20,666 nucleotides of DNA from a virus. Below, in pieces: positions 2,450-18,957 of this stretch (positions are counted from its first letter, which is position 1; each line of letters begins with the position of its first letter). The position numbers and the translations under genes were made by a program. The notes beneath the pieces were generated by a model. That model had not been told where the DNA came from. It did no database searches and saw only the letters and a list, made by a program, of their open reading frames with translations. The DNA is taken from the IMG/VR virus record IMGVR_UViG_3300022858_000209, positions 1 to 20,666 of that record; one strand, written 5' to 3'.

Positions 2450-2451
2450 AG

Positions 2452-4595: not shown

Positions 4596-4604
4596 AGAGG
4601 AATT

Positions 4605-4667
4605 ATGGCAAATAAAGATGATACAGACATTACTTTAGATAATATAAGTTTTAAGAAGGTATCATAA
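4605..4667 (+). CDS. Possible 20-aa mini-ORF
   Basis: ATG at 4605 is preceded by a very good ribosome site, AAAGAGG (4594-4600), 4 bases away. The frame closes at TAA 4665-4667, and that TAA begins the ribosome site of the next gene. The peptide is polar and acidic with no known motif. It could be a real microprotein or a leader peptide that feeds ribosomes into the terminase genes. Evidence is only the ribosome site and the tight packing. Confidence 0.4.
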   Translation: MANKDDTDITLDNISFKKVS

Positions 4668-4675
4668 GGAACTTA

Positions 4676-5110
4676 ATGCCAAGAACAAAACTACAACCTG
4701 AAGAAGACTTGCACGAAACGATATTAGCGTTGGCTTATAACGGTTCAGAGGCAAGGGCTATAGCTACAAAGGCAGATGTTCCATTAAAAGCAATTGAGTT
4801 CTTCATGCCGTTACTGCGTGAACTCGCACAGTTAAAAAAGAATCCCGATAAAGAGACAGTAAGAAATAAGATTGTTATGAATGCAGTCGGCTGGATAATG
4901 AGTGACGACCCAGCGGTTCAACTGAGAGGTCAGAACCACCTGATGAAACTATGGCCGAATCAGTATGCAGATATATTCAAAGCATTACTACACTCCGACC
5001 AAAAACAAACAGTACTTGTTGAGTCACGGATTGTAGATGTTGTACCGGAAGGCGATCAGGCTAAAGTACTGGAAGAAATAAAAGCAGCGGAGGTTAAAGA
5101 AGATGATTAA
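4676..5110 (+). CDS. terS: Terminase small subunit (putative), 144 aa
   Basis: This gene directly precedes and overlaps the large terminase gene by 8 bases, the usual place for a small terminase subunit, which recognises phage DNA and loads the large subunit. Residues about 11-45 fit a helix-turn-helix (TILALAYNGSEARAIATKAD and onward), the normal DNA-binding part of this family. The middle is helical, suited to ring formation, and the acidic C-terminus could contact the large subunit. Length is typical. ATG at 4676 follows TAAGGA (4665-4670) at 5-base spacing. Identification rests on position and fold pattern rather than a unique motif. Confidence 0.7.
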   Translation: MPRTKLQPEEDLHETILALAYNGSEARAIATKADVPLKAIEFFMPLLRELAQLKKNPDKETVRNKIVMNAVGWIMSDDPAVQLRGQNHLMKLWPNQYADIFKALLHSDQKQTVLVESRIVDVVPEGDQAKVLEEIKAAEVKEDD

Positions 5111-6719
5111 CTCCGTTCCCGATAACTACACAGAAGCACATCGACAGATAGACCTGATTAACAGTGAGAAGTCATTGTATTATTTCGGTAAGCATATTCT
5201 TGGCTATGAAGACGCAGAACCTCAACCTCACTTAGAGTTGTGCAATTTCATACAGAACGGTGGCGACAGAAAACTTCTAGTTGGTACACGCGGCATATAC
5301 AAGACCTGTTTTGGAACGGTAGCCTACGCTATACAGAGAGTTATTAAGAATCCTAATATACGGATACTTATAGTCCAGAACACAGAAGACAATGCACAGA
5401 AAACATTGGGTGAGATTAAAGATCACTTTGATAGAAATCAAAAGCTACGAAGAATGGTTCCGAGTATCATTCCTACGAATACGCACAAGGTCGCATGGAG
5501 TAAATCGTCAATAGAGGTCAACCGAGACAGGGTTTATCGAGAACCAACTATCATGGCCGCTGGTGTCAATACAGATTTAGCTTCATTGCATTTTGATTTA
5601 ATATTAGGTGACGATGTAGTAGCCGCTAAGAAAGATGATATGAAAGAGGGCGGCATGATTATTCTCCGTCCAGAGGAAGTGGAAAAGGCAATCGGATGGT
5701 ACAAGATTACTGCACAGGGTTTATCGGTCAATAGAAAGGGAAAGAAAACCGAAGTACAGTTCATTGTAAACCGATGGGGACCGAAGGACTTTGCTGAACA
5801 CATCATGTCTAACCATCTCAAAACGGAAGAAAATCCATATGGTTTCTCCTTTTTGCAGATGGCTGCACATAAAGATGACGGTGAACTTCTATGGCCTTCC
5901 GTAATGACAGAAGAGTACCTTGCCCAAGCAAGGCAGGCGATGGGCGACTTCATGTATTTCACCCAGATGGAATGTCGTCCGTACAATCCAGCCGATAGAG
6001 GATTCCCGCCAGAGCTTAATGTATTCTGGCAAGGGAAAGAGCCTCCGCAGTTAGATAAGAAAAGCCAGGTTAATCATTATAGAATCTATGCACTCATGGA
6101 TATGGCAGACGTTTCAACAGCATCAAGCTGCTACACTTCGTTTGTCGTTTTGTGGGTTGACCAGGATAATCATATCTGGTTGGGCGAAGCTATACGGCAG
6201 AGGTTAGATACTGTTGGTAAGATCGCATTGATTCACAGCATGGTAAGAAAATATAAACTCACAAAGGTTCACATCGAGGAAAATCTATATAAAGAAACAT
6301 TGAGATTCGTTTTGCGCAATGCGATGGTGCGGGAGAATGTATTCTACCGAATCGAGCCGCTAAAACCTAAAAATAGAAATAAAGATGCTCGTATTCTTAG
6401 GCTACAGCCCCACCATCAGCAAGGCGCATTCCATCTTAAATCAGAACACGTTGACCTTATGCAGGAGATGAGAGATTTTCCATATACACCGTGGAAAGAT
6501 ATTATAGATAGTTGTGGATATATTATGGACTTCATACGTGGTCCTATTATACCTAAAGATGAACCAGAGCTAGTGTATAAACCGAGAACAGAGTTCAGTA
6601 TGAAAGAGATGAAAGACAGCATCAAAAACAGGAATGCTGCGGTTTACGGTTCTGGTAAGAAATTATTCAGAAAGCAAGGCAGGCACTTGCGAGATAATGT
6701 TAAGGAGTTCGTAGCATGA
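5103..6719 (+). CDS. terL: Terminase large subunit, 538 aa
   Basis: This is the packaging motor that pumps DNA through the portal and cuts it. The ATPase half has a Walker A-type loop GTRGIYKT (61-68), a Walker B-type segment LILGDD (166-171) and a VQNTEDNAQ stretch (91-99) typical of the family. The RNase H-like nuclease half shows MDMAD (332-336), IEEN (391-394) and KDIIDSCGY (465-473), giving the expected acidic residues D333, E392 and D469. The Walker A loop has Tyr where the textbook motif has Gly before Lys. ATG at 5103 overlaps the end of terS, with GGAGG (5089-5093) at 9-base spacing. Length is normal for the family. Confidence 0.93.
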   Translation: MINSVPDNYTEAHRQIDLINSEKSLYYFGKHILGYEDAEPQPHLELCNFIQNGGDRKLLVGTRGIYKTCFGTVAYAIQRVIKNPNIRILIVQNTEDNAQKTLGEIKDHFDRNQKLRRMVPSIIPTNTHKVAWSKSSIEVNRDRVYREPTIMAAGVNTDLASLHFDLILGDDVVAAKKDDMKEGGMIILRPEEVEKAIGWYKITAQGLSVNRKGKKTEVQFIVNRWGPKDFAEHIMSNHLKTEENPYGFSFLQMAAHKDDGELLWPSVMTEEYLAQARQAMGDFMYFTQMECRPYNPADRGFPPELNVFWQGKEPPQLDKKSQVNHYRIYALMDMADVSTASSCYTSFVVLWVDQDNHIWLGEAIRQRLDTVGKIALIHSMVRKYKLTKVHIEENLYKETLRFVLRNAMVRENVFYRIEPLKPKNRNKDARILRLQPHHQQGAFHLKSEHVDLMQEMRDFPYTPWKDIIDSCGYIMDFIRGPIIPKDEPELVYKPRTEFSMKEMKDSIKNRNAAVYGSGKKLFRKQGRHLRDNVKEFVA

Positions 6720-7297
6720 GTCGAGTATATGCAATATTAGGAACAGACGTATATAACTGGAAGGTTGCCCGGAGGAATATTGTCACCCTCTCGGCTCCCG
6801 ACTTTAATTTAAGTAACCCAGGTAGTGGTGGTATCTTTGACAATAGGGCAACTCTCTGGAATGCAATCCAATTGGACAGATTATGGAGAGGTAAGGATGC
6901 TCCCAATGGCATTAAGATTTCTCCGTACCTGACGACCAATTCAACAGCTACATTGAACAATGTTAATTTCCGGTTTCAGGTAGATGCCTTCCGAGGGCGA
7001 GAGAACAACCTTGAAAGAATCTGTACTGTTTCCGGTACTGCCGGTGCATATACATTCTTCAAAGATGATGACGGACTTAGCAGCTACGGTGGCTATACTA
7101 TCGCATCTGGTCGTTATGCTGATTTTCTGAATTTGACCGAAGATTATAATCACTCGATAGACCTTGAAGATGCAGCCAGCGATAACGGAAGAGCAATGCT
7201 GTCATTGGACTGGGAAGGCCGAGGGATGATAGCTATAAATATGTTAAGTACACTGGATGCAGGCATTGGTCTGGGTTTTGCAATATCAGGATGGTAA
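6716..7297 (+). CDS. Beta-rich protein between terminase and portal, 193 aa
   Basis: I do not recognise a named family. The product has no membrane segment or nuclease motif and is rich in Gly, Asn, Thr and aromatic residues in alternating strands, like a small virion surface or decoration protein. The start codon overlaps the terL stop as ATGA, and AAGGAG (6702-6707) lies 8 bases upstream. The stop is 3 bases before the portal ATG, so all three genes are translated as a block. It ends in a hydrophobic aromatic segment (GLGFAISGW), and the other small beta-rich proteins of this window at 13218, 14029 and 15725 also end in hydrophobic or aromatic strands. A shared origin is possible but unproven. 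Confidence 0.65.
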   Translation: MSRVYAILGTDVYNWKVARRNIVTLSAPDFNLSNPGSGGIFDNRATLWNAIQLDRLWRGKDAPNGIKISPYLTTNSTATLNNVNFRFQVDAFRGRENNLERICTVSGTAGAYTFFKDDDGLSSYGGYTIASGRYADFLNLTEDYNHSIDLEDAASDNGRAMLSLDWEGRGMIAINMLSTLDAGIGLGFAISGW

Positions 7298-7300
7298 CAA

Positions 7301-9037
7301 ATGAAAGTTAAGGATTTATCAGACTTAAAAGCTAGGCAGAAGGCTGCGATGGATTACCGCGAGTCTTTGTATAAAGATACTGACTGGCGTGAGTATGAAG
7401 ACTACTGGATGGCTAGGTATCCCAACCAAGAGGGTATCTTAAACGTTCCGGTACTTGTATCTGACGCACAAAGGCAGATGGCCTCTCTGACAGGTGCAAC
7501 TCCGGTATTGGAGTTATCTACTAACCAACCAGAACTCATCCCTGCCGCCCGCGTAATATCAGCACAGCTTAATCAGCTTGCAAGGTATATGAAGATAGCT
7601 GACGAGATGCAGGACGCGGTACAGGACGCTATAACTCTAGGCACTGGTTTTCTGCTTGATGGCTATGGAAGTCAATACGGCACATCTTATACAACTGCTA
7701 ACGAAGGTATCGACGATTCCCGCTATGACGATAAGTATCAGCGTATCGAATACCATGAGAATATCCAAGATAATATGCCTTGGACGTTGAGGGCGCATCC
7801 GTCAGATATTCTTGTCCCGTCAGGAACTATCAGAGAAGCAGATTGCTCTGGATTCTGGCATAGGTATATAAGACATATCGACGATGTTAAAGCTGATGAA
7901 AAGTATATGAAGAAGCATCGGGCCAAGCTCAAACCTGATATTAACATTGGTGAGACAACAGCAGGTATGGCTGGTAGCTATAACCGAGACATTGACCTTG
8001 AGCATGTCATGCTGTGGGATCATTACAATTATAAGACCAGTAAGCGAACAAGCTATAATGAGAACTACGGCTTTGCGATGGCCGATGATGTCGATGAGAT
8101 AATGATACGGATAGACCGATTACCAGTTCACTCTATCGTATTCAATCGTAACAGCAGGATGTTCTGGGGTACTTCTGACTTTAATTTCCAGGAAGATAAC
8201 GCAATGGAAATAAATGACATCAGAACCCAGCAGATGAAGTTGCGTAGATTACAGTCAGCTAAGGGTTTCTACGATAAGAATATGTTGGAAGATGAAACTG
8301 ACATGGAGAACTTTGAGAAGGCACTGGCTTCAATGACTTCAGATGAGGTCATGGCATTGATAGGGATTAACGGCGACCCTTCCAGGTTCATACAACAGTT
8401 CACTCCACACCAGATGCCTGATTTAAGTGGCCAGCTACAGACATGCAAGTCTGAGATTCAGGAGTTTGGTCTGGGAATAGGCCCGCACCAGAGGGGCCAG
8501 ATGGCTCCCGGCAGGCATACGAAATATGAAACGCAGGTAGCTGAAGGTGGATTCGATATGTCACTGACACCACGCCTGAAGGTTATCAGAGATGTCTATA
8601 TCGAGATATTCAAGAACTGGTCTGAGTTGATATTTGAGTTCTGGGATGAACCCCAGCAAGTTCAGACTTTTGACGCTATGGGCAATCCGGTAATGGTAGA
8701 GTTCAAGGGAGCGGACCTGAGAGGCGACTATCGGTTCAATATCTCACTGGATTCCATGAGGACAAAGAACCAACAGCAGAGGGTTGAAGAGGCTAATATG
8801 ATCTTGGCACAGACGATGCCGGGCGTACAGATGGGGGTTGTGGACCCGCGAGTATTATATCGTCAATATCTATCGAGGATAAATAGCGATTGGGATATAG
8901 ATTCACTGGTCCCAATGCCACAACAGCCAAAGGCAATGCCATTCAGTGAGTATCAACAGGGGTTCGGGCAGCAGATGCCACAGAACGAACAGGGGATAGC
9001 TCAGATAATGGGACAAATGGGAGGACAGATAGGTTGA
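7301..9037 (+). CDS. Portal (head-tail connector) protein, 578 aa
   Basis: The portal forms the ring at one capsid vertex through which terminase pumps DNA. Signs are the position after terL, the size, and an N-terminal region typical of podovirus portals: a helical start with DWREYEDYW (about 27-35), then LVSDAQRQMASLTGATPVLE and a long helix (ADEMQDAVQDAITLGTGF). The middle has mixed alpha/beta segments including AHPSDILVPSG. The long helical stretch FGLGIGPHQRGQMAPGRHTK and onward fits the stem/crown part. The last 45 or so residues are rich in Gln, Met and Pro and probably flexible. The stop overlaps the next gene's TTG start as TTGA. Confidence 0.88.
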   Translation: MKVKDLSDLKARQKAAMDYRESLYKDTDWREYEDYWMARYPNQEGILNVPVLVSDAQRQMASLTGATPVLELSTNQPELIPAARVISAQLNQLARYMKIADEMQDAVQDAITLGTGFLLDGYGSQYGTSYTTANEGIDDSRYDDKYQRIEYHENIQDNMPWTLRAHPSDILVPSGTIREADCSGFWHRYIRHIDDVKADEKYMKKHRAKLKPDINIGETTAGMAGSYNRDIDLEHVMLWDHYNYKTSKRTSYNENYGFAMADDVDEIMIRIDRLPVHSIVFNRNSRMFWGTSDFNFQEDNAMEINDIRTQQMKLRRLQSAKGFYDKNMLEDETDMENFEKALASMTSDEVMALIGINGDPSRFIQQFTPHQMPDLSGQLQTCKSEIQEFGLGIGPHQRGQMAPGRHTKYETQVAEGGFDMSLTPRLKVIRDVYIEIFKNWSELIFEFWDEPQQVQTFDAMGNPVMVEFKGADLRGDYRFNISLDSMRTKNQQQRVEEANMILAQTMPGVQMGVVDPRVLYRQYLSRINSDWDIDSLVPMPQQPKAMPFSEYQQGFGQQMPQNEQGIAQIMGQMGGQIG

Positions 9038-9813
9038 CGTATATCATAGCAGAAGCAGGGATTAACCATAACGGCGATATGGGTATCGTTAGAGAGATGA
9101 TAGATGCAGTAAAGCAAGTTGGGGCAGACTGCATTAAGTTTCAACTATATCATACTAACAGGTTGATATCAGAGTCTAAGACCGGCGTGAGACTCAGGGA
9201 CGAAATTATCCAGAAACGTGTAAAGGCCAGGGGCCATCTCCAGCAATGCGAACTCACAAAGGGTAATGTTTCCGCGATAATGGATATGTGTGCCAAGTCT
9301 AAAATAGATTTCCTTGCTACTCCGTTCGACTGCCAGTGGGCCGATATTATGATGGGGCTTGGCTGTAGAGAGTTCAAGGTCGGCTCGGACCGCATATTCG
9401 ATGTTCAGTTGATGGAGTTACTCTATCAGTACGCGAACACGCTATATGTATCTCTGGGCATGGCTCAAGGTGCTGACATAGAGAGGCTGTTAAGCAATAG
9501 CTACAATGAGGGTGTGGAGAGCCTTGTCTTAATGCACTGCGTTAGCAAGTACCCAACGCCACCTGAAGAGGCTGATATGAAGAAGATTCGGCGGTTGCAG
9601 GTGAGGTTTGGCAATGAGGTTGGGGTTGGCTTCTCAGATCACACTACTGATATACATGCGGGTGCTTGTGCTGTTATCAATGGGGCAACGTACCTGGAGA
9701 AGCATTTCACATTAGATCATAACATGAAGGGGCCGGACCAGAAGATGTCTTTTACCCCAGATGAGTTAAAGACTTACATCACGCTGGCCCGTGGCGTGGA
9801 GGTTTATACATGA
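9034..9813 (+). CDS. neuB: NeuB-type nonulosonic (sialic-type) acid synthase, 259 aa
   Basis: Enzymes of this family join phosphoenolpyruvate to a six-carbon amino sugar (such as ManNAc) to make sialic, legionaminic or pseudaminic acid. Signatures are EAGINHNG (7-14), IKFQ (34-37), ATPFD (95-99), KVGS (115-118), MHCVSKYPTP (167-176), GFSDHT (199-204) and EKHFTLD (222-228). His203 and His224 match the two metal-binding histidines known in NeuB. The protein stops after the barrel: usual bacterial NeuB is about 340-350 residues and ends in an antifreeze-like (SAF) domain, which is missing here. The TTG start at 9034 overlaps the portal stop; GGGAGGA (9019-9025) is 8 bases upstream and the first residues match the family start. 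The sugar substrate cannot be read from sequence. Confidence 0.88.
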   Translation: MTYIIAEAGINHNGDMGIVREMIDAVKQVGADCIKFQLYHTNRLISESKTGVRLRDEIIQKRVKARGHLQQCELTKGNVSAIMDMCAKSKIDFLATPFDCQWADIMMGLGCREFKVGSDRIFDVQLMELLYQYANTLYVSLGMAQGADIERLLSNSYNEGVESLVLMHCVSKYPTPPEEADMKKIRRLQVRFGNEVGVGFSDHTTDIHAGACAVINGATYLEKHFTLDHNMKGPDQKMSFTPDELKTYITLARGVEVYT

Positions 9814-10076
9814 TTTATCAATATCAATGTCCTAAATGCCTCAAGGTTATGGAAGAATATCGTCGGGTCGCAGATAGGAATAACTGCCCTAAATGTGCTG
9901 AGTGCGAGGTTAAGACGACAAAGCAACTGATAATCCCAGATATTAACACAGGAGCAGGCGACCGGATACCGGGTCTATGTAAGTCGCTACCGGGTAAGCC
10001 TGTCTATGTGAAGAATAAGCATCATTTCAGAGAGTTATGCAAGGAAAGGAACGCCGGAACGCCGGTTAATTTATAG
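9810..10076 (+). CDS. FmdB-like zinc-ribbon protein, 88 aa
   Basis: The N-terminus reads like the FmdB-type zinc ribbon: MIYQYQCPKC, then CPKC after 15 residues. Cys7, Cys10, Cys26 and Cys29 are the probable zinc ligands, with Cys32 nearby. The C-terminal half is basic and holds conserved-looking PGLCKSLPGKPVYVKNKHHF. Proteins of this kind are common beside phage structural genes, but their role is not known. Start overlaps the neuB stop as ATGA, with GGAGG (9798-9802) at 7-base spacing. It may bind nucleic acid or act with a neighbouring protein. Confidence 0.75.
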   Translation: MIYQYQCPKCLKVMEEYRRVADRNNCPKCAECEVKTTKQLIIPDINTGAGDRIPGLCKSLPGKPVYVKNKHHFRELCKERNAGTPVNL

Positions 10077-10101
10077 AAATATCAGGAGATAATTTGGCAA
10101 G

Positions 10102-10782
10102 ATGGAAAATAAAGGTAATATAGATAAGAAGATTAGTGACGCTTGTGTCAAGTTTAACGATTATGTGAAGCCCGCTATCGAGTGGATGAAAGAGAGTATT
10201 AAGCATAATCAGAACATGGACCTGATGATAGATTTTTGCAGGTTCAATTACTATATATCGTATTATTTGAAGTTAATGGACTTAGTAGATTGTAAGGCTT
10301 ATAGTAAATCAGACATTTATAAGATGAATAGAATGCTGGACTTATATAATAATATACTGAAGACGCAAGACACTGATGAGCTTGCCGCTATGACCAGATG
10401 GGCTATGCGGACGATCATCACTGATATGTCGGTTGACTATTATTTATTCGACCAGAAGAAGATGGATGATCTCACTGATGATAACTTAGGTAAGCTACTG
10501 GACATGGAAGTGGTAAACTGGGCAAGTTACGAAAGCTACGCAATACCGATAATCAATACGCTATTGCATGAGGTGGATGGTGAAGTGGTTGTTAGGGAAG
10601 ACCCTGACCTGGAGCTATTGGCTCAGGATGTGGGTTCTTCTCAATATCTGGCTTACGCACACATTATGGAGGCTATGGAGGATGCGGCTCAGAGTCATAT
10701 CCTATTTGAAGAAATACAGGAAAAAATGGACGCGAACAAAATGATAGTCCAGAAAGTCTATGAAAGGGAAACAGCAATATGA
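10102..10782 (+). CDS. Hypothetical alpha-helical protein, 226 aa
   Basis: I do not recognise this protein. It looks almost fully helical, with many Met, Tyr and acidic residues, no membrane segment and no enzyme motif. The N-terminal half includes an aromatic-rich patch (FCRFNYYISYYLKLMDL, about 47-63). It starts 25 bp after the zinc-ribbon gene; AGGAGA (10084-10089) lies 12 bases before the ATG, a slightly long gap. Its stop overlaps the next start as ATGA. The place between portal and scaffold suggests a role in head assembly, for instance as a scaffold partner or a minor head protein. Confidence 0.65.
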   Translation: MENKGNIDKKISDACVKFNDYVKPAIEWMKESIKHNQNMDLMIDFCRFNYYISYYLKLMDLVDCKAYSKSDIYKMNRMLDLYNNILKTQDTDELAAMTRWAMRTIITDMSVDYYLFDQKKMDDLTDDNLGKLLDMEVVNWASYESYAIPIINTLLHEVDGEVVVREDPDLELLAQDVGSSQYLAYAHIMEAMEDAAQSHILFEEIQEKMDANKMIVQKVYERETAI

Positions 10783-11243
10783 TTTCGCAAGAAGAATACA
10801 ATCTGTTGAGTGCGCAGAAGAGGCGACTGGAAGAAGAGAATGAGATTTCTGAAAAGCGTCTTCAGGAGGCAGAAGAGGCTAATAGCAATCTATCCCAGAA
10901 GTATAACGATGTTGAGAAGAAGCATCGTATTCTGATGAGGAAGATTGAGAATCTTAACCGTGACAAAATGATGACTATACAGATGGAGGCAAATGGCCTG
11001 CTTCATACTGAACTTATGGGTCCGTGGACGTTCGGTGACTGGCGTAGTTGCCAGAAGCAGATATTCCAGGATATCAGGCAGAATCAAATATCTCTTGAAG
11101 CTAAACTGCCAGTTGCAAAGGTTGATGTTGACCTGTCCGATGCGGTTATAGAGGAGCCGGTTGACCCGCTAATAGAGGCCGAAAAAGAAAAAGTCAGAAA
11201 AAAGAAAGGGATATTTAACAATGTCAGAACAAGAATACAATAA
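10779..11243 (+). CDS. Coiled-coil protein before the scaffold gene, 154 aa
   Basis: Residues about 5-75 have a clear heptad pattern with long runs of Glu, Lys, Arg and Leu (for example AQKRRLEEENEISEKRLQE), so a long coiled coil is likely. A short aromatic patch, GPWTFGDWRSCQKQIF (about 81-96), follows, and the C-terminus is charged and ends in basic residues (KEKVRKKKG). It overlaps the previous gene as ATGA and runs 23 bases into the next. It may be an accessory scaffold or assembly factor; its function is not known. Confidence 0.65.
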   Translation: MISQEEYNLLSAQKRRLEEENEISEKRLQEAEEANSNLSQKYNDVEKKHRILMRKIENLNRDKMMTIQMEANGLLHTELMGPWTFGDWRSCQKQIFQDIRQNQISLEAKLPVAKVDVDLSDAVIEEPVDPLIEAEKEKVRKKKGIFNNVRTRIQ

Positions 11244-12045
11244 CGAAATACCAGAGTCTCAGTCAGACACACCGACAGACCTCGATGAGGAAGTAAGCGA
11301 CTTAAATGTCCCTGAAACAGAACCGGATGTTATGGATGACGACCAGGAGGAAGTTCTTGACGATACTGAAGAGTCCTCAGATGCGGAAGAAGAGGATTAT
11401 GATGAGGGTTCAGGCGACGAAGAAGTTGATGAACCAGCAAAACCAGCATCGAATCAAGACGAACGCTTCGACAAAATGTCGCAGCAAATGGAGCAGTTAC
11501 AAGGTGTTGTTACATCTATGGCCGACTTTATGCAACAAGGAGGCCAGCAACAGCAACCAGTTCAGCAACCTGCTCCTCAGCGTCCCGTTAGACCGCAGAT
11601 AACGATACCTGAAGACGTAGAAGACTACAGCCAGCGAGATGCCGTGAAATACGCGGTTGAACAATCACAAGAGCAAAATAACTCTGTGATTAATGAGTTG
11701 GTTTCCAATCTCTCAAAAAGATTGAACATCTACGACAACCTGCTGGACACAGCATTGCAAGGTCATCCACAGAAGCAGATGATTTCTGAAGCATTAACAA
11801 TGATGCAGAAGAACCCGTCTATAAGCTTCCAGATGGCAATGCAGACAGCGGACGGATTAGCTGCTAAGAAGCGGGTAACGTCCCTTGAGAAGCAGAGCAA
11901 GCAGTCCCGCAAAGCCCAACAGAAACGTAAGGCTAAAGCGAGTCGCAGCTCTCAAAGACCGACCCAGATGAGAAAGCCAAAGACAACGAGAGTCCTTTCG
12001 GTAAGAGAGGCAGTTGACTTAGCAGAAGCTCAGGCGGGTCGCTAG
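11221..12045 (+). CDS. Capsid scaffolding protein (putative), 274 aa
   Basis: Scaffolding proteins guide shell assembly and then leave. This one has the usual build and place, just before the major capsid gene: a very acidic N-terminal 80 residues, a helical segment (about 83-105), a Gln/Pro-rich linker (about 107-125, with a QQQQ run), a helical middle and a strongly basic C-terminus (KQSRKAQQKRKAKASR and onward), which in known scaffolds contacts the coat. No protease motif is seen. The start overlaps the previous gene by 23 bases. Identification rests on composition and synteny, since scaffolds diverge quickly. Confidence 0.78.
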   Translation: MSEQEYNNEIPESQSDTPTDLDEEVSDLNVPETEPDVMDDDQEEVLDDTEESSDAEEEDYDEGSGDEEVDEPAKPASNQDERFDKMSQQMEQLQGVVTSMADFMQQGGQQQQPVQQPAPQRPVRPQITIPEDVEDYSQRDAVKYAVEQSQEQNNSVINELVSNLSKRLNIYDNLLDTALQGHPQKQMISEALTMMQKNPSISFQMAMQTADGLAAKKRVTSLEKQSKQSRKAQQKRKAKASRSSQRPTQMRKPKTTRVLSVREAVDLAEAQAGR

Positions 12046-12061
12046 AGTTCTAAAATAGTAA

Positions 12062-12150
12062 AAAGAATAGCCAATCAAGTTGGCTTCTTTGAGCAAGTGT
12101 ACCGGCACTTACACTTGCTCTTTGTCTAAGGTAAAAGTGCCGGAGGAAAG
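12062..12150 (+). promoter_or_regulatory. Tandem hairpins and loop-SD complementarity before the capsid gene
   Basis: Hairpin 1: AAAGAA (12062-12067) and GCCAA (12070-12074) pair with TTGGC (12080-12084) and TTCTTT (12085-12090), with a 2-base bulge and 5-base loop. Hairpin 2 follows without a gap: a perfect 11-bp stem, 12091-12101 with 12110-12120, an 8-base loop and then TTTGTCT, so it is terminator-like. The loop region CCGGCACTT (12102-12110) is exactly complementary to AAGTGCCGG (12135-12143), which runs into the capsid ribosome site GGAGG (12142-12146). The RNA could therefore form a pseudoknot or swap between two folds. Likely roles are attenuation, translation control or mRNA protection of the capsid gene. 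Confidence 0.7.
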
Positions 12151-12154
12151 CATT

Positions 12155-13159
12155 ATGGCTAAGGCAACCTATTACAAAAAGGGAAATACCGCGTACCTAG
12201 ATATGCTCTTTATGAGTTCCTGGGACCAGCGGTGGAAGACCATTGAAGATCAGATATTCCATAAACATCCAACACTTTCGTGGATGTTAGAACGTAAGAA
12301 TACCAATATGCTAGGTGAAGGTGGCGAACAGTTTCTTGTTCCGCTGCTGGTTGAAGAGAATCCTAACGGTGGCTGGATTAACGAGGAAGAGGGAGTTTCG
12401 ATGGACGACTTCGACCCGGATGATGGTGCTGCCTACTGGGCTAAGACACTAGCTTACGGCACAAGATGGCCGAGGTATCAACAGAGAGTCAACCGTGGCT
12501 CCAATAAGAAGTATTCCATCATTGAGCATAAAGAAGAAGTGACTATCAAATCTGTTAAGAATCTTCTGGCTCAAGCTGTTTATAATGGCTCTGGTGGAGC
12601 AGGTAAGCAACCTGAAGGTCTGAATCGTCTTATCCCGGCAACCGTTCCGGCCAGTCAATCGGTATCCATTGGCGGTTTGTCACCATCTACTAAAGCATGG
12701 TGGAGAACGCAGGGTACGAACATGAGTGGTTCCCCGGCAACGACCAACTTGGAATCTGAGATGATCGACATGCACGATATCATCGAGTTAGAGACTGGCA
12801 CGCCGGATGTCATCTTCACTCATAAAGACGTGAAGCAGATTTACGAAAAGAACGCCATGTCATTTATGACTGTGGATTCTAAGACCAAAATCGGTGACGC
12901 TACGTTTGATATGGTGAAGTTTAAAGGCTTACCTCTCATCTTCGATAAGGCTGCCCCTGCTGGCGAATTGCGTATGGTTACGAATGCTGGTATTCTGTGG
13001 TGCGTTGACCCTGAGTTCTACATGAAGTGGACCGATAGTAAAGAGGCCGTTAATCTGCCTATTACTAAGTTCCGCCAACTTGTAACTGTTTGTGCGATGG
13101 CACGTACAGCGGCACGTTCGCATGGTTGTATCTTCAACATTAGTGCTAATGGCGACTAA
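12155..13159 (+). CDS. Major capsid protein, 334 aa
   Basis: This is the shell protein, expected to have the HK97 fold. It follows the scaffold gene and has the usual size and layout: helical N-terminal arm, an E-loop-like segment (about 50-80), then the P and A domain motifs GGLSPSTKAWWRTQG (about 173-187), LESEMIDM (199-206), TPDVIFTHKDVKQIYE (216-231) and FKGLPLIFD (256-264). The frame is open further upstream, but ATG at 12155 is chosen because GGAGGAAAG (12142-12150) is an excellent ribosome site and upstream codons lie inside the hairpins. Part of the A-domain region is echoed by the gene at 1161-1835. Three Cys (283, 313, 325) sit in the C-terminal part. No protease gene lies nearby. 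Confidence 0.88.
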   Translation: MAKATYYKKGNTAYLDMLFMSSWDQRWKTIEDQIFHKHPTLSWMLERKNTNMLGEGGEQFLVPLLVEENPNGGWINEEEGVSMDDFDPDDGAAYWAKTLAYGTRWPRYQQRVNRGSNKKYSIIEHKEEVTIKSVKNLLAQAVYNGSGGAGKQPEGLNRLIPATVPASQSVSIGGLSPSTKAWWRTQGTNMSGSPATTNLESEMIDMHDIIELETGTPDVIFTHKDVKQIYEKNAMSFMTVDSKTKIGDATFDMVKFKGLPLIFDKAAPAGELRMVTNAGILWCVDPEFYMKWTDSKEAVNLPITKFRQLVTVCAMARTAARSHGCIFNISANGD

Positions 13160-13217
13160 TAGTTGTGGATGAATAGTGTATCGAAGTTTTTAACCTGATT
13201 ATTACAGGAGAATTATT

Positions 13218-13997
13218 ATGCAGGTTCATAGTTATGGAAAAAGTGTAAAGGCACTGTTGACCGCTGGTGTCCAGTCCACTAAGAGTGATATACCTCTTGG
13301 CCAGAAGTTTGAGGACGGCGAAAGAGTTTATCGCTGGGCTTATGTTAAATGTGCTTCGGCAGTACCGGGTCTTTGCTTTATATGCAGTAGCTATCGTTCG
13401 ACGATTAGCACCCAGGCGTTATCTGGTCCAGGCGACCACTTCAACAGTGCGGTTGCAGGTTGGGGCGGGAGTATTGGCGATGTCAATATTAAGCTGTATG
13501 GTGTTTCCGGTATGACAGACGAAGATATGTATGAAGACGGTACTTTTGAAGTATTGTCTGGTACAGGCAAGGGATTCAGCTACAAAGTCAATAGCTACGA
13601 GCGTGGTGGCTCCGGTGTTCACACCTTACGATTGAACGACCCATTACAGGTAGCCCTTGATACGACCACGTATGCTTATCTGCGACCGAACAAGTACTAC
13701 GGCTTGGCGTTCCAGGCGGGAGTCTTGTCTGCCTCTCAGGTGTATCTCAGGGGTGGTGTCGCTACTGTTAGCGTTACTGCTTCCGGGTACTGTCTTGTTC
13801 AGACTAGAGGGCCGGGTATTGGTATGGCGATTGCAGCTACCAGTGCTGGAAGGCTTGTCGCTCCGATGAATGTATCGGGCCAGATTTCAGCAATAATTAT
13901 GTCTGGGATAGTGAATGCTGTTATGCCTTGGGGTTATTCGGCGGGCGAAGCTATTGGCGCAGATGACTTCTTCGCTGTTGACTGGTGTATTGAATAA
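13218..13997 (+). CDS. Probable capsid decoration or head protein, 259 aa
   Basis: The protein directly follows the capsid gene, where decoration, head-fibre or minor head proteins are usual. AGGAG (13206-13210) lies 7 bases before the ATG. The sequence is Gly/Ser/Ala-rich with alternating hydrophobic residues, so it is mostly beta-strand, with no membrane segment or enzyme motif. The N-terminal half holds a short, charged block (SGMTDEDMYEDGTFEVLSG) and the last 50 residues are hydrophobic, ending in FFAVDWCIE. Function is inferred from position and composition only. Confidence 0.7.
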   Translation: MQVHSYGKSVKALLTAGVQSTKSDIPLGQKFEDGERVYRWAYVKCASAVPGLCFICSSYRSTISTQALSGPGDHFNSAVAGWGGSIGDVNIKLYGVSGMTDEDMYEDGTFEVLSGTGKGFSYKVNSYERGGSGVHTLRLNDPLQVALDTTTYAYLRPNKYYGLAFQAGVLSASQVYLRGGVATVSVTASGYCLVQTRGPGIGMAIAATSAGRLVAPMNVSGQISAIIMSGIVNAVMPWGYSAGEAIGADDFFAVDWCIE

Positions 13998-14002
13998 TTA
14001 AC

Positions 14003-14022
14003 CCCTTACCTCTGAAGGGAGG
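14003..14022 (+). promoter_or_regulatory. Ribosome site partly held in a small hairpin
   Basis: CCCTT (14003-14007) can pair with AAGGG (14015-14019) around a 7-base loop. AAGGG is the first part of the ribosome site AAGGGAGG (14015-14022) of the gene at 14029, so folding would partly hide it. The stem is short and the effect may be slight. Confidence 0.35.
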
Positions 14023-14028
14023 TTTGTT

Positions 14029-14340
14029 ATGGCTATTACTGTTACAAGAAAGTCAAGGCCAGTACGTGTAAGCACGGGTGGCAGAGGCTATTCTATAATC
14101 AGCTTCAGTGCAGTAGCAAGTGGTACTTCTACATTCCCAGGAAGTGGATTTGAAAGTTATTATCAGTCTATTGATAATGTTGCTATCAATATGTTATCCG
14201 GCAAGGCACAAGTAGTATGGAAAAAGCAAGGCGACCCAGGTTCCGGCATCTTTATTGAGATACAGGCATCTAATGGTGGATTTGTTGATGCTGCTGAGGT
14301 TGTCAGATTTACGTTTACTGCGTTCGGAATTACAACATAG
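14029..14340 (+). CDS. Small beta-rich probable virion protein, 103 aa
   Basis: A 103-residue protein of unknown family, with strong ribosome site AAGGGAGG 6 bases before ATG. It is composed of short alternating strands rich in Ser, Gly, Thr and Val, with a GIFIEIQASNG segment (about 73-83) and an aromatic C-terminal strand (RFTFTAFG). The C-terminal style recalls the proteins at 13218 and 15725 (GIFIEI here, GIFIQI there), so these may be related small beta-sandwich structural proteins. Position after the capsid gene suggests a head or neck part. Confidence 0.6.
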   Translation: MAITVTRKSRPVRVSTGGRGYSIISFSAVASGTSTFPGSGFESYYQSIDNVAINMLSGKAQVVWKKQGDPGSGIFIEIQASNGGFVDAAEVVRFTFTAFGITT

Positions 14341-14358
14341 TTCCATTTTTTTGTCTCC

Positions 14359-14390
14359 GAGGCAGGTCGTTACCTTTCGCGGCCTGCCTC
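14359..14390 (+). promoter_or_regulatory. Strong hairpin before the neuD-like gene
   Basis: GAGGCAGGTCG (14359-14369) pairs with CGGCCTGCCTC (14380-14390): 11 bp with one T-G wobble and a 10-base loop. No T run follows it; a T-rich run lies before it instead, so it is not a normal terminator. It sits 5 bases before the ribosome site AAGGAGG (14395-14401) of the next gene. It probably blocks 3' decay of the upstream mRNA or tunes expression of the acyltransferase gene. Confidence 0.6.
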
Positions 14391-14405
14391 ATCTAAGGAG
14401 GTTTT

Positions 14406-15050
14406 ATGAAGGTAGCTATTGTAGGTGCTGGAGGGCATGGCCGTGTTATCCTGGATATACTCCGTAATAACCACCAGTTTGATGTCGTTGGCTTTTTGGA
14501 TAACAACATTCAAATGCAAGGTAGCGATGTTGACGGTATTCCTATTATCGGACAACCCGATAACATTACTTTTATGCGGTATGATTTCGATAGCTGTGTT
14601 ATTGCTATTGGGGATAATAGCATCAGAAATAAGATCGCTCAGAAGTTAAAGGGCGTTCATGTATCTCTGGTTAATGCTATCCATCCATACGCGACTATCG
14701 CTGGTAATGTAAAGATAGGTAACAATGTAACGATAGCGGCTGGTTCGGTGGTATGTACTCATTGCGAGATAGCTGACTCAGTAATCCTTAATACGGGTTC
14801 TATCGTTGACCATGAGTGTAAGGTCGGTAGAGCTTCACATATATGCCCCGGTGCTAAGATAGCTGGCCGCGTTAATATAGGTGAGGAAGCGTTTATCGGT
14901 ATAGGAGCAACAATCGTTCAGGATATTACTATCGGTGACGGTGCTATTATAGGTGCTGGTTCGGTAGTACTGGAAGATGTTAAAGCACATACTACTGTGG
15001 TTGGCGCACCGGCCAGAGTGATTAAGGCATTGGAACTGGTGAGGGCATAA
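14406..15050 (+). CDS. neuD: NeuD/PglD-type sugar acyltransferase, 214 aa
   Basis: Enzymes of this family transfer an acetyl group from acetyl-CoA to a sialic acid or an amino sugar. Residues 1-85 form the small N-terminal sugar-binding domain with VAIVGAGGHGRVILDIL (3-19). Residues about 95-190 are hexapeptide repeats of the left-handed beta-helix type (KIGNNVTI, VNIGEEAFIGIGATI, ITIGDGAIIGAGSVV). NTGSIVDHE (129-137) holds His136, in the place of the catalytic His of PglD, and His145 follows. The C-terminal GAPARVIK is typical. Length is normal and the protein looks complete. AAGGAGG (14395-14401) lies 4 bases before ATG; the stop overlaps the next start as TAATG. With the NeuB-type enzyme at 9034 it suggests a shared sugar role. 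Substrate is uncertain. Confidence 0.88.
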   Translation: MKVAIVGAGGHGRVILDILRNNHQFDVVGFLDNNIQMQGSDVDGIPIIGQPDNITFMRYDFDSCVIAIGDNSIRNKIAQKLKGVHVSLVNAIHPYATIAGNVKIGNNVTIAAGSVVCTHCEIADSVILNTGSIVDHECKVGRASHICPGAKIAGRVNIGEEAFIGIGATIVQDITIGDGAIIGAGSVVLEDVKAHTTVVGAPARVIKALELVRA

Positions 15051-15715
15051 TGAAACAATCAGAAATGAAAACGCATCTTAAACAGAATCTTGGCAATAGA
15101 AGTATATCTTCATTGGAAACAGATTGGCTGAACTTCGCGTTACAAGATACAGCGGCGTTGCGTAACTGGCGTAAGATGAAAGTGCTGGATAGTACAACCG
15201 TTAAGACGGTTCCTAATAAGCTTTATTACCCCGTTCCCAACAGGACTAAGACTATTCTGGATGCTATCTATATGGATGGCTCAAATTCAAGGCCGTTGAT
15301 TTACATAACGCCGGAACATTATCGGGATACTTTCTCGTCACCAACTGACAGTGGTGCTGGTCCGGTTAAATATTACACCTATGAAGGTGACTATATAAAG
15401 CTGTACCCAATACCGGATGATAGCATCCCTATCGAGTTATTCCTGACTCAGTGGCCAACTGCATTTAATAGTAGTGCTGACACTGACAATCCACTGGGCG
15501 ATCTGTTGGACTTGGCAGTGATAGCAAGAGCAACGGTCTGGGGTGCAACTGCAATGCGAGACTTCCAGACACGTAACTTTTTCAACAATATATTTGGCAA
15601 GCAATGTAAGCGGATAGCTGTCTCTGACGGTAACTTCCAGGATTGGACTCCGCAGTATGCTTCCAAGCAGAATCTAAGAAACAGAGAATCAGGGTTATTA
15701 GTCCCTGCAATATAG
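15050..15715 (+). CDS. Probable head-tail adaptor (T7 gp11-like), 221 aa
   Basis: Its size and position, after the capsid gene and before the large nozzle-like gene, fit a tail-tube A or adaptor protein, which seats on the portal and carries the nozzle. The sequence has a helical N-terminus (SSLETDWLNFALQDTAALRNW), a beta-hairpin segment (KLYYPVPNRTKTILDAIYMD), a PLIYITPEHY block and a helical C-terminal part (LLDLAVIARATVWGATAM). This order is familiar from gp11-type proteins. The start overlaps the neuD stop as TAATG, with GAGGG just upstream. Identification is by pattern and synteny. Confidence 0.62.
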   Translation: MKQSEMKTHLKQNLGNRSISSLETDWLNFALQDTAALRNWRKMKVLDSTTVKTVPNKLYYPVPNRTKTILDAIYMDGSNSRPLIYITPEHYRDTFSSPTDSGAGPVKYYTYEGDYIKLYPIPDDSIPIELFLTQWPTAFNSSADTDNPLGDLLDLAVIARATVWGATAMRDFQTRNFFNNIFGKQCKRIAVSDGNFQDWTPQYASKQNLRNRESGLLVPAI

Positions 15716-15724
15716 GAGAATTAC

Positions 15725-16150
15725 ATGGCAGCTTTAACAACAGTCAATGTTGGCCTGACGATGCGAAATATTGGAGATGCTACAACCAGAGACAATATTG
15801 CAACTCTGTCTGGTTATCGGGCGGTGCATGGCGGGACAGGAATACTCACCACCAGCGGGACTACATCGCAACTTTTGGATTTTGGTGCTATATCCAGTAA
15901 CGGCATAAAGGGAATATTTATTCAGATCCTATCAAGCTGGTTGAATCCCAGCGCAGCAGCAACTATGTCTAGTTTAAGTGGTGTGTTCTTATATACGTCA
16001 AAAGCATCAGCAGGACATTGGCAGCGTCTTAGCGATGGTGATGCCAGTTATCTTCAACCATATGCCGCATCAGTCATACCATATAGACTCAGTATCAGAG
16101 CCGGTGAGTATAGAGAATATTATTACAAGTACAGTGTGTTTGGAATCTAA
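15725..16150 (+). CDS. Small beta-rich probable virion protein, 141 aa
   Basis: This is a protein of unknown family between the adaptor and nozzle genes. AGGAG (15714-15718) lies 6 bases before the ATG and includes the previous stop codon. The product is rich in Ser, Thr, Gly and Ala, with strands such as GIFIQILSS (about 62-70) and an aromatic C-terminus (REYYYKYSVFG). The stop directly abuts the ATG of the nozzle gene. It may be a tail or head-completion part, possibly related to the small protein at 14029; the similarity is short and not decisive. Confidence 0.6.
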   Translation: MAALTTVNVGLTMRNIGDATTRDNIATLSGYRAVHGGTGILTTSGTTSQLLDFGAISSNGIKGIFIQILSSWLNPSAAATMSSLSGVFLYTSKASAGHWQRLSDGDASYLQPYAASVIPYRLSIRAGEYREYYYKYSVFGI

Positions 16151-18604
16151 ATGGCAAACTATAAATACATCATAGTTAATAAACCTGACCGTGGCTTAAT
16201 GTTGAATGAGCAGGATGCAAACATCTCTAATGAGCATTGCTCTGACTGTAAGAATGTCTATTTCCGTGACGGTCAGATTATCAAGAGATTCGGATATGGG
16301 ACGAAGAAAAGCATTGTTAATGATATTGGAATTGTAAGTGCTGGGAATTATATTCAGTCTGCATACACTGATGAAGCAACTCATATCCAGATGCACGAAT
16401 CTAATATCAATGTATCGACTGCAACTCGCAGATTATATGGTTTTTCATTAGAAGACGCCATGTATTATAAACCTGTATCGGGTGTATGGAAAATTTTAGG
16501 GAAAGATATAGATAAAGATGCAACCGCTTCTGGTTGGCTAAATTGGGATGAAATTGGCATTCAATACAACGGCATGGTACGCAGTTCTTTTGGCGGCATT
16601 GACATAGGCTTATCGCCAATATGTTCCGCAAGAACTGCTAACATAAGAGTTGAGATAGATGATGATGCTGCAAACCCCAATACATTCCGATGGCGACATG
16701 CAAATGGTGGCCCGTGGATTCAAGCAGGGGTTGCTTGCACAACAACACCTGTATTATTAAGTGCTGCTGGGACGCAATATTCTTATGCTTCATTTTCTCT
16801 ATCGACAGGCGGTGCAGTAAGTGACTATAGCCTTTTCCAGTTTGGGCCTGCTGAAACACTGTTCTACGCTGATACTACATCTGGGCCAAATGGCTCTTGT
16901 ATTACTGGGGCATCGTGTCTTCTTGTAAGTACCCTATCAAAAGGATTCACGGCCTTCAAATATTATAACTCATCAGGATGGGGTGGAGCAGACACGTTAT
17001 CTTTCTGGTTCTATGCAAACAGGGTTGTCTCGGCAGATGATTTCAGATTCAAGATAGCAAACGATAGCGGGGCTGCTTATGGTATGCCTCTTTATTCTGA
17101 AGATAGTGCGGCGCATGGTGCTTTTATAAACGTACCTATTGACTCTACGTACCCAGCTAATACATGGAATAATGCGGTACTGACTTTCTCTACGTTACCA
17201 AGCACATATAGCCAAACAAGCAGGCTTTTACTACTTGAGGTTGATTTTGATGGTGCAGGATGGAAGTCTGTATATTTTGACTATCTACAGCTATTAAAAT
17301 CAGGTGGAACTACAAACCTCAGTGCTACCTCTACTAAGAAATCTCCAACATTATCTGATGCTGTACTTGCGAATATAAACTCGTCCACGCAATCGTATCT
17401 TGTGACAACGAACTATGAACAAGAACATTACGTCAGATATATAGACAATGGTATTACTGACCCGAAGTGGATGTTAGTAGCTGGTGCTGCCGACGCTGGT
17501 AGCGGATACAACGATACATCTGCATCTGATTACCATAAGTGTAAGGCGATAAGTGGATATAAGGAGAAGCTACATTTACTGGGTGGCAGCGAAGATACTG
17601 CCGGTACTGGTGCGGTTGATAAGCTACTGCAAGACAGATGGAGTGCAACTAATGACGCTATGGAATGGCAGGGTGGCGTTGCTACTGCAAGAAACGTTGC
17701 CGATACTTCTGGTGCTATTCTCAATGCGGTACGATTAACCGATGATAACAACTACATATTCAAGACAGACGCTATTGTAAGGCAGTCATTCTTAGGTGGT
17801 GAGTCTGCGATATTCTCATATAACACGGTATTCCAAGAGGATGCTTTATTGGCCGCTAAGATGGTGCAGGTAATCGGTGACTACTGCTATTGGGTTGGCA
17901 GAAGGAATGTATATGCGTTTGGCTCTGGAACAACTATGAGTCCAATTGGCGATGGCATTGAGTCAGAGTTCTATTCTACTGATGGAATTGAATACGCTGA
18001 AGGCCAATACCATCGCCGAAGTTTCTGGATGGATATGAGTATCGTTAATCTTGTGGGTATCATGGTCCCTGTCAGTAGCAATTATCCAGATAAGGCATTC
18101 ATGTTTGACCCGGATGAGAAGGTATGGGCGATATGGGATTTCTCTGCTGGTACAAGTACTAATATAACTGCGTCTGACTATGCAATTGGGTTGGTAACTG
18201 AGGGGACAGAAACAAACCTACAGCATTCAGTTCACTTCGGTAACTCATCTGGTGAGTTTTATGAGTTTGATACAACTGCTAAGAATGATGGAGCTAAAGC
18301 AATAGATGGCTATTGGATTTCCAAGGCATTCTCTAATCCGAAGAGTGAGAGGGCAGAGATTACCGCATGGAACGGTCTGGACTTTGAAGCTAAAGGTGAT
18401 GGTATCACTGTGAGTATTAAGGCAGATGACGGTGCATGGCAAGAGATTGAGACAAAGGTTCTGACATCCAGCTATGATTGGTACACGGTTGGTTTCCATC
18501 AACAGGCAAGATTCCTGAAGATCAAGTTCTCTAATTCGACATTGAGTGAAACGTTCTCTGTAAGGTCGTTTACTATGAGATACGAAGATGGAGCAACTCA
18601 CTAA
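16151..18604 (+). CDS. Tail nozzle / tail stabilisation-like protein, 817 aa
   Basis: The N-terminus has the pattern of podovirus nozzle or stabilisation proteins (T7 gp12 / P22 gp10 type): RGLMLNEQDANISNEH then NVYFRDGQIIKRFGYG (about 35-50). From about 462 on, HKCKAISGYKEKLHLLGG, DRWSATNDAMEWQGG and repeated strand segments fit the beta-propeller-like body that extends the tail and plugs the channel. Between about 160 and 390 lies a long region that reads like inserted beta-sandwich, carbohydrate-binding-type domains, including DTLSFWFYANRV and SRLLLLEVDFDGAGWKSVYF. ATG follows the previous stop without a gap and has no clear ribosome site, so translation is probably coupled. Length is within the range of the family once the insert is counted. 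Confidence 0.72.
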   Translation: MANYKYIIVNKPDRGLMLNEQDANISNEHCSDCKNVYFRDGQIIKRFGYGTKKSIVNDIGIVSAGNYIQSAYTDEATHIQMHESNINVSTATRRLYGFSLEDAMYYKPVSGVWKILGKDIDKDATASGWLNWDEIGIQYNGMVRSSFGGIDIGLSPICSARTANIRVEIDDDAANPNTFRWRHANGGPWIQAGVACTTTPVLLSAAGTQYSYASFSLSTGGAVSDYSLFQFGPAETLFYADTTSGPNGSCITGASCLLVSTLSKGFTAFKYYNSSGWGGADTLSFWFYANRVVSADDFRFKIANDSGAAYGMPLYSEDSAAHGAFINVPIDSTYPANTWNNAVLTFSTLPSTYSQTSRLLLLEVDFDGAGWKSVYFDYLQLLKSGGTTNLSATSTKKSPTLSDAVLANINSSTQSYLVTTNYEQEHYVRYIDNGITDPKWMLVAGAADAGSGYNDTSASDYHKCKAISGYKEKLHLLGGSEDTAGTGAVDKLLQDRWSATNDAMEWQGGVATARNVADTSGAILNAVRLTDDNNYIFKTDAIVRQSFLGGESAIFSYNTVFQEDALLAAKMVQVIGDYCYWVGRRNVYAFGSGTTMSPIGDGIESEFYSTDGIEYAEGQYHRRSFWMDMSIVNLVGIMVPVSSNYPDKAFMFDPDEKVWAIWDFSAGTSTNITASDYAIGLVTEGTETNLQHSVHFGNSSGEFYEFDTTAKNDGAKAIDGYWISKAFSNPKSERAEITAWNGLDFEAKGDGITVSIKADDGAWQEIETKVLTSSYDWYTVGFHQQARFLKIKFSNSTLSETFSVRSFTMRYEDGATH

Positions 18605-18945
18605 TGAATCACACACAGATAATATCGTTGCCTAAGATACCAGTGCTTGCTTCGCAGGTTAAAGGTCAGGAAGCTACGCTGGAAGACGTTAAGAATGATG
18701 TGGGGATATTGACCTCATATCTACAACATCTTCAGGCTTCAATTGAGGGTCTATCATCTAATCTATATAAGGATTTATCCCAAGGGAGATCGAGACATGA
18801 AGTTCGAGCAGATACTTGGACTATTGCAGACAATATAGATAACGGTGAGATAAAGTTTTCGCATGGTAAAAGTCACGAATTACAAGTTATGTTAGGCGGA
18901 GTCATGTACTACGTCGGGTTGACCGCTATTCCGGTTGGCCCATAA
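18604..18945 (+). CDS. Small hypothetical tail-region protein, 113 aa
   Basis: I do not recognise this protein. Residues about 16-55 are helical with a heptad-like pattern (QVKGQEATLEDVKNDVGILT), followed by a charged RSRHEVRADTW segment and a beta-rich C-terminus (ELQVMLGGVMYYVGLTAIP). The start overlaps the nozzle stop as TAATG, so it is translated with it. It may be a small tail part or chaperone. Confidence 0.6.
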   Translation: MNHTQIISLPKIPVLASQVKGQEATLEDVKNDVGILTSYLQHLQASIEGLSSNLYKDLSQGRSRHEVRADTWTIADNIDNGEIKFSHGKSHELQVMLGGVMYYVGLTAIPVGP

Positions 18946-18957
18946 GGAGTTATAGAT

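Follow-up and report, generated by a model that had tools for sequence, protein, structure and literature searches.

The later steps of bacterial legionaminic acid synthesis go by the names LegH, LegI and LegF, and those of sialic acid synthesis by NeuD, NeuB and NeuA. Flagellin nonulosonyltransferases of the Maf/PseD type have been described from Magnetospirillum (5mu5), Clostridium (CbMaf) and Campylobacter (Maf4). Maf glycosylation is cytoplasmic and precedes export, with a protein as the target and a cytidine monophosphate-activated nonulosonic acid (CMP-NulO) as the donor (PMC4065374). PF01973 (DUF115) forms the middle domain of Maf proteins, whose core is similar to the sialyltransferase Cst-II and which can use varied donors (PMC11339370). 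Maf4 is a putative legionaminic-acid transferase, and LegB and LegC start the pathway (PMC9298399). Here, we report homologues of NeuB, NeuD and NeuA and a Maf-like protein in a phage. The first two lie in one complete viral contig of 20,666 bp (IMG/VR record IMGVR_UViG_3300022858_000209), the whole of which we call the window.

In phages, virion glycosylation has been described for mycobacteriophages, with Che8 gp110 and Corndog gp38 (Freeman et al. 2023, via PMC12363180). Virus-only viromes were reported to contain neuB (126, 8) and neuA (11, 5), the values of two table columns; these genes were thus already counted, and the accessible part of that paper gives no gene context, DUF115 or link to head clusters (Roux et al. 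2013, PMC3877843). A survey of Ace Lake, a possible source of the contig numbers used here, in the sections available reports no auxiliary metabolic genes from annotation of partial viral contigs (PMC7416419). Our literature search, with subscription papers and preprints largely outside its reach, returned no phage Maf, no phage NulO virion pathway and no virion role for NeuB. A Bacillus megaterium phage paper (PMC6292376) was discarded as a NeuB source; the match in the accessible text was to the author name Neubauer only.

The phage gene set resembles the Maf/PseD systems in three features of one protein (a PF01973 central domain, the top fold match of its modelled core and a length of 594 amino acids (aa)), and the set as a whole fits CMP-ulosonic acid synthesis. 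Unlike those systems, it is phage-borne, its sequence match to 5mu5 is insignificant and its acceptor is only presumed. As in the bacterial LegH-LegI-LegF and NeuD-NeuB-NeuA pathways, homologues of three steps are found in one genome. In contrast to them, the phage is without members of three hexose-enzyme families, its NeuB has no SAF domain, and its genes are divided between the head cluster and another region. Like the mycobacteriophages, it would encode a transferase for capsid or tail, here predicted from genes; the available text of PMC12363180 mentions no Maf or ulosonic-acid pathway for those phages. We propose, at a probability of about 0.5, that the phage encodes a NulO pathway in which a hexose from the host is converted to a CMP-activated ulosonic acid and attached to a virion protein; the activities, the sugar and the acceptor are all putative.

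Sugar genes in the head cluster and elsewhere in the genome

The NeuB-family synthase gene (9034-9813, plus strand, 259 aa) begins with a TTG inside the stop of the portal gene (TTGA). The gene for a NeuD/PglD/LegH-family sugar acetyltransferase (14406-15050, plus strand, 214 aa), with AAGGAGG upstream, overlaps the start of an adaptor/connector-like gene (15050-15715, plus strand) through TAATG. Both junctions had been described in a first-pass annotation of the window, and we observed that both overlaps were also kept in G002, a related phage of 45,635 bp (~84% DNA identity to the window phage in late blocks). The portal protein (7301-9037, plus strand, 578 aa), which sits after the terminase, matched P22_portal weakly (19 bits, below the cut-off of 26.1), and the adaptor-like protein had a weak match to phrog_10775 'tail' (20.6 bits).

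Profile matches agreed with the gene families assigned in the first-pass annotation. NeuB matched Pfam NeuB PF03102 at 206.5 bits (cut-off 22.1) and the synthase model TIGR03569 at 225.4 bits over positions 1-256 of 329, below the equivalog cut-off of 399.65. NeuD matched the NCBIfam NeuD/PglB/VioB model TIGR03570 at 223.5 bits (cut-off 160.8), with an N-terminal PglD_N domain (74.5 bits) and a hexapeptide domain. Its His136 aligned with the His replaced in structures 4eaa and 4eab. The statement that both proteins keep their key motifs and are intact held for NeuD and held in part for NeuB. Upon alignment to 1xuu, NeuB kept 12 compared positions, which we take to be active-site residues (Glu25, Lys53, Gln55, Lys129, Ser132, Ser154, Tyr186, Ser213, His215, Glu234, His236 and Asp247, meningococcal numbering). 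Two others had changed (Glu134 to Arg120 and Asn184 to Ser171), and the C-terminal SAF domain was absent, with model positions beyond 256 unmatched.

We assessed the same features in relatives of NeuB, which a pattern scan located at 51 loci in viral contigs. In the 47 used for the residue check (L003, from the same phage, and the partial L050-L052 were left out), Glu or Asp occupied the Glu134 column in three, and three proteins reached at least 300 aa. Bacterial relatives were also often short (<300 aa in 43 of the best 80 of 185). SAF-less bacterial examples, including Arthrobacter, SAR116, Pelagibacteraceae and Lachnospiraceae records, carried KVASAM/S or similar where KIGSGE is expected (loci L206-L261). 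Because so many bacterial relatives are short, the phage NeuB is best read, from these alignments, as a member of a widespread SAF-less class common to bacteria and not as one decayed gene.

To place the window, we used G001 (IMGVR_UViG_3300005915_000036; 45,197 bp), which was 100% identical across the entire overlap. Window positions 1-7897 correspond to the end of G001 and 7871-20666 to its start, and a 27-bp repeat is present at the G001 ends. This repeat and the window match place the window across the junction of a ~45.17-kb genome, which appears to be circularly permuted and whole in G001; IMG/VR places G001 among records without end repeats ('linear'). Bacterial contamination was rejected for the window phage, as G001 closes on itself via the window and terminase, portal and capsid genes flank NeuB.

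The suggestion that activation and transfer genes might lie outside the window proved correct. NeuA-like and Maf-like DUF115 genes are present in G001, ~3-8 kb before the first base of the window. In order, and on the same strand as the window genes, we found the PF01973 protein (594 aa; G001 29674-31458; 90 bits, cut-off 34.6), a B12-binding radical-SAM protein (G001 ~32.0-33.39 kb) and the NeuA-type synthetase (G001 33398-34102; CTP_transf_3 37.5 bits, cut-off 22.6). This order was identical in G002. NeuA matched solved CMP-sialate synthetases (6ifd, E 1e-12; 1eyr, E 5.9e-11) and was below the PseF equivalog level (TIGR03584 51.6 bits, cut-off 205.7). The PF01973 gene lies 17-28 kb from NeuB on the linear records of this phage. 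The argument of the first-pass annotation for late production is one of position only; it carries less weight for Maf and NeuA, whose genes come after others of replication type (DnaB-like and RusA-like, named by eye). A small serine recombinase gene on the opposite strand (G001 34072-34875, equal to L063:4072-4875) is convergent with NeuA and overlaps its 3' end; it was 93% identical at the same G002 position, a possible hint of cassette mobility.

The search for epimerases, also recommended at the time, was negative for Epimerase_2. Neither G001 nor G002 yielded a member of Epimerase_2, DegT or GDP_Man_Dehyd (no search was made for the further dehydratase family PF02719).

NeuB partners and neighbours in viral contigs

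We searched 50 of the NeuB-bearing viral records for the partner families, L003 being left out. CTP_transf_3 was present in 44, within 5 kb of NeuB in 36. PF01973 occurred in 22 at E <= 0.001; nine of these exceeded the curated cut-off, and in 13 the match was no more than 5 kb from NeuB. NeuD_NnaD reached E <= 0.001 in seven and exceeded its cut-off in just two, both of this phage group. The expectation that NeuB and NeuD would be a co-occurring, co-inherited pair was rejected on this count. By profile match, the regular partner of NeuB in viruses is a NeuA/KdsB-type synthetase.

As a control, we used 45 loci of arbitrary viral contigs obtained with an arbitrary 15-base pattern (a 17-base-pattern locus, L137, was not used), because DnaB-derived controls gave nine loci, seven of them of the same phage group. 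Neither CTP_transf_3 (0/45) nor PF01973 (0/45) was found (P = 6e-21 and P = 5e-8, respectively, Fisher's test against the NeuB records, uncorrected for relatedness or length). The control contigs were shorter (median 21 kb vs 45 kb); at the per-base rate of the NeuB set, ~22 CTP_transf_3 and ~11 PF01973 matches would be expected in them, and we observed none. The NeuB records were not independent and formed 41 clusters at 90% NeuB identity, of which 39 had CTP_transf_3 and 18 had PF01973.

A contig with the same metagenome number as G001 (L019) carried, at 5450-10822, a B12 radical SAM protein, DUF115, a SPASM radical SAM protein, a NeuA-methyltransferase fusion and NeuB in a row. Its B12 radical SAM protein was 26% identical to that of G001.

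We picked seven lineages with NeuB at head genes by eye from open reading frame (ORF) maps and then checked them against PHROG profiles. As they were picked by hand, 7/41 is not a rate. Beyond this, all 50 records were scanned for phrog_12 and phrog_10 (matches in 8/50 and 2/50), and PHROG tests of single genes in four further candidates (L006, L038, L019 and L036) detected no head gene. The first lineage is the window phage with G002. In the second (L008, L046 and L050), a portal gene (phrog_156, L046 copy), a capsid gene (phrog_334) and genes for 113 aa and 277 aa are followed by a sugar block of a methyltransferase-PF01973 fusion, NeuB and a NeuA/KdsB-type synthetase, and then by genes for proteins of 105 aa and 306 aa and for one with weak similarity to connectors. 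The third (L005, 2-2955) has WbuX, NeuC, NeuB and WbuZ ahead of a portal gene (phrog_12082, 580 bits). WbuX (162.7 bits; runs off the contig), NeuC (188.2 bits) and WbuZ (256.9 bits) were all below curated cut-offs; the row resembles a pathway for an amidinated (acetamidino-type) ulosonic acid, here within the head cluster of a phage.

In the fourth lineage (L012), NeuB is followed by portal, 161-aa, protease and capsid genes, with a NeuA-type gene ~2 kb ahead of NeuB. The fifth (L016) reads terminase large subunit (TerL), NeuA, methyltransferase, NeuB, 114 aa, portal, protease (by eye) and capsid. The sixth (L022) reads TerL, portal, protease (by similarity to L016), capsid and two genes, and then a sugar block of NeuA, 93 aa, methyltransferase and NeuB ahead of an adaptor gene. 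The seventh and weakest (L025) has NeuC, a full-length NeuB and other genes, with head morphogenesis and scaffold genes 3.8 kb on.

Structural proteins were shared, at blastp E <= 1e-4 among the head-cluster loci, by L016 and L022 only (22-41% identity). These two HK97-type loci also share their sugar genes (NeuA 41%, methyltransferase 47% and NeuB 52% identical), at different sites. In L016, TerL and portal flank the block, whereas the L022 copies of these two genes (open frames 683-2425 and 2609-4351) are separated by 184 bp. The two genes that flank the block in L022 have counterparts in L016 (10746-11675 and 11763-12476) with 88 bp between them. Related blocks thus occupy different positions in related head clusters, and each position is vacant in the other phage; gain or relocation therefore happened more than once, on both occasions within the head cluster. 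NeuB-type genes at head genes in several unrelated phages suggest that some phages sugar-coat their own particles. A broader claim, which we hold tentatively and at slightly worse than even odds, is that phages with unrelated head types repeatedly took ulosonic-acid genes, sometimes with a Maf-type transferase, into head operons to 'sialylate' their capsids.

These neighbourhoods also bear on a different role, in which the gene products supply or modify a host glycan (O-antigen or capsule) via host glycosyltransferases, as in serotype conversion or surface remodelling, and the DUF115 protein is incidental. Many other viral NeuB genes do lie amid epimerase-, aminotransferase- and glycosyltransferase-like genes (by eye), and Acinetobacter phage O-acetyltransferases act on capsular NulO, as described in the accessible part of PMC6586298. 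However, we observed no broad sugar cluster in G001 (all except ~12.8-15.0 kb) or in G002 (30.0-45.6 kb), the three hexose-enzyme families were not found in either genome, and the position in the head cluster would be left unexplained. We consider this role improbable. Taken together, gene position, recurrence and the presence of a Maf-like protein speak for glycosylation of a protein during assembly rather than for the feeding of a host capsule.

The Maf-like protein and the proposed pathway

We next consider whether the DUF115 protein is a Maf. Its only NCBIfam match was FlagModPseD (66.6 bits over positions 211-388, 178 of 640; cut-off 670), and its sole match among PDB sequences was the Magnetospirillum Maf 5mu5 at an insignificant E of 0.073. 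The full-length AlphaFold model had a predicted local distance difference test score (pLDDT) of 47.8, too low to judge the outer domains, and was not used. We therefore modelled a core of 271 aa from 13 viral sequences (pLDDT 57.2; predicted template-modelling score 0.65). Foldseek placed 5mu5 first, with an E of 1.8e-6 that equalled that of the MptE fusion 8sbu (template-modelling score 0.52 vs 0.42). In a second aligner, Maf 5mu5 reached Z 12.8 over 206 residues (root-mean-square deviation 4.9), ahead of Methanocaldococcus jannaschii MptE (10.0), SteA (9.3), ST8SiaIII (7.3) and CstII (5.8); the tool describes Z values under 8 as common. The length of 594 aa fits a three-domain Maf, in comparison to 212-216 residues for the MptE chains of 8sd5. 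The model thus predicts a PF01973 core with a Maf-like fold; the fold is common to MptE and so is not diagnostic of function. Because NeuB and NeuA occur in the same genome and the fold comparisons rank Maf first, Maf is the better reading.

The same data were weighed for a product other than a protein glycan. The NeuB-like enzyme could make another ulosonate, or the DUF115 protein could be MptE-like or another enzyme, giving a small molecule or nucleotide. The lost SAF domain and Glu134 (the acidic residue being rare among the viral relatives too), synthase-model scores below equivalog cut-offs and the tie of MptE with Maf in Foldseek E, with M. jannaschii MptE the second-best fold, are all consistent with this. 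Against it stand the 12 kept active-site positions of NeuB, the first place of Maf in both fold comparisons and the NeuA/KdsB-type partner in most NeuB records. We regard such a product as quite unlikely.

In the pathway that we propose, NeuB would condense a host-supplied six-carbon sugar with phosphoenolpyruvate to give a sialic-type ulosonic acid, and NeuD would acetylate the hexose precursor or the product. NeuA would activate the ulosonic acid with CTP, and the Maf-like DUF115 protein would transfer it in the cytoplasm to protein Ser/Thr. The overlaps of NeuB and NeuD with the portal and adaptor frames imply that the sugar should be made during capsid building, which makes a virion protein the likeliest acceptor, be it the capsid, the 259-aa protein encoded beside it or a component of the tail. 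The benefit may be, for example, altered adsorption, shielding or no sticking to debris.

Maf acceptors in the literature are flagellins (PMC4065374, PMC11339370 and PMC9298399, in the parts accessible). The phage Maf could accordingly glycosylate host flagellin or another host protein, with altered motility or a block to re-adsorption as the outcome (late superinfection exclusion or a release aid). The FlagModPseD match, far below its cut-off, and the location of Maf and NeuA outside the G001 head cluster point the same way. The overlaps of NeuB and NeuD with the portal and adaptor frames argue against a host target, as do the PF01973-NeuB-NeuA block of L008 inside a head cluster and the occurrence of NeuB at head genes in seven lineages, whose head genes are mostly without recognisable similarity. 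Modification of a host protein is possible and, in our judgement, fairly unlikely.

Several observations weigh against virion glycosylation, besides the flagellin acceptors and the separate location of Maf and NeuA. Virion glycosylation by any member of the group is predicted from genes. With three hexose-enzyme families not found, the host presumably supplies the hexose. The loss of the SAF domain and Glu134 means that the NeuB substrate may differ from N-acetylmannosamine or a 2,4-diacetamido sugar. CTP_transf_3 includes KdsB besides NeuA, and the NCBIfam matches of the L008 protein are to KdsB-type models; two of the seven lineages (L005 and L025) had no CTP_transf_3 match. PF01973 also covers archaeal MptE (matches in four of 14 control genomes, all archaea). 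Of the seven lineages, this phage and L008 alone gave a PF01973 match, although the remaining five are represented by fragments of 7.9-24.7 kb. In most of the 41 NeuB clusters, the maps show no head gene beside NeuB, and many NeuB genes lie in large sugar clusters.

Selection, relatives and other genes of the phage

We compared the window phage with G002 by simple counting of nonsynonymous and synonymous substitution rates (dN/dS); dS was 0.6-1.9 in the named genes, so the ratios are approximate. NeuB was at 0.057 and NeuD at 0.093 (dS 1.1-1.4, hence rough), the DUF115 protein at 0.061, the B12 radical-SAM protein at 0.088 and NeuA at 0.128. All five sugar genes thus had low dN/dS (0.057-0.128), with NeuB and NeuD near the portal (0.040) and capsid (0.076). 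The zinc-ribbon gene next to NeuB (9810-10076) was at 0.24, above its flanking genes (0.057 and 0.085).

We identified neither a donor nor a host. Among bacterial relatives of NeuB (best 80 of 185), the top ones were 37-38% identical and scattered over phyla, and no tRNA genes were found. In a NeuB tree (L046, L013 and three near-identical rows left out), the two proteins of the window phage and G002 lay on a long branch. Among 50,697 phage records, NeuB had matches in three, the capsid in two and the terminase in 53, all at <60% identity, and neither Maf-like protein (G001 or G002) had a match. Scanning viral contigs for the terminase yielded 13 loci, six of this phage group and seven (L268-L274) at 25% identity; the latter are possible distant relatives.

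All genes of the late cluster in the window are on one strand, and those beyond the adaptor-like gene were without family matches. A right-handed beta-helix protein (666 aa; 2595-4595), tailspike-like, lies ahead of the terminase genes, and TerL is at 5103-6719 (plus strand; phrog_38, 182 bits). NeuB is followed, with an ATGA overlap at its stop, by an FmdB-like zinc ribbon (88 aa; 9810-10076, plus strand; family matches below curated cut-offs), two plus-strand genes without an assignment, and a scaffold-like acidic protein (274 aa; 11221-12045, plus strand), named from position and composition with no useful family match. The major head protein (12155-13159, plus strand) matched phrog_9953 at 90.5 bits; an ATG at 12155 fits better as its start than the listed TTG at 12080. 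Between these two genes, a terminator-like hairpin of 11 pairs (12091-12120) precedes the ATG and may separate capsid expression. Promoter-like matches were at chance level (29 vs 27.9 expected).

The 259-aa protein 3' of the capsid gene (13218-13997, plus strand) is a candidate virion surface protein or acceptor, and its 61% identity to G002 was the lowest among 13 window genes compared. The 103-aa protein ahead of NeuD (14029-14340, plus strand) is conserved, being 98% identical in G002. Outside the late cluster, short-repeat proteins are encoded in G001 (L062:7243-7710, GYGYGDG-type) and G002 (L066:15067-15633, FNTDYDC-type).

Through its linkage to NeuA-type, Maf-like and head genes, NeuB changes from an 'auxiliary metabolic gene' without explanation to the starting point of a testable hypothesis, that of sialic-type virion decoration by tailed phages. 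It also points to a little-noticed class of SAF-less NeuB common to phage and bacteria. If virion decoration is true, it would have consequences for adsorption, for the clearance of phages in animals and for the making of glycosylated capsids.

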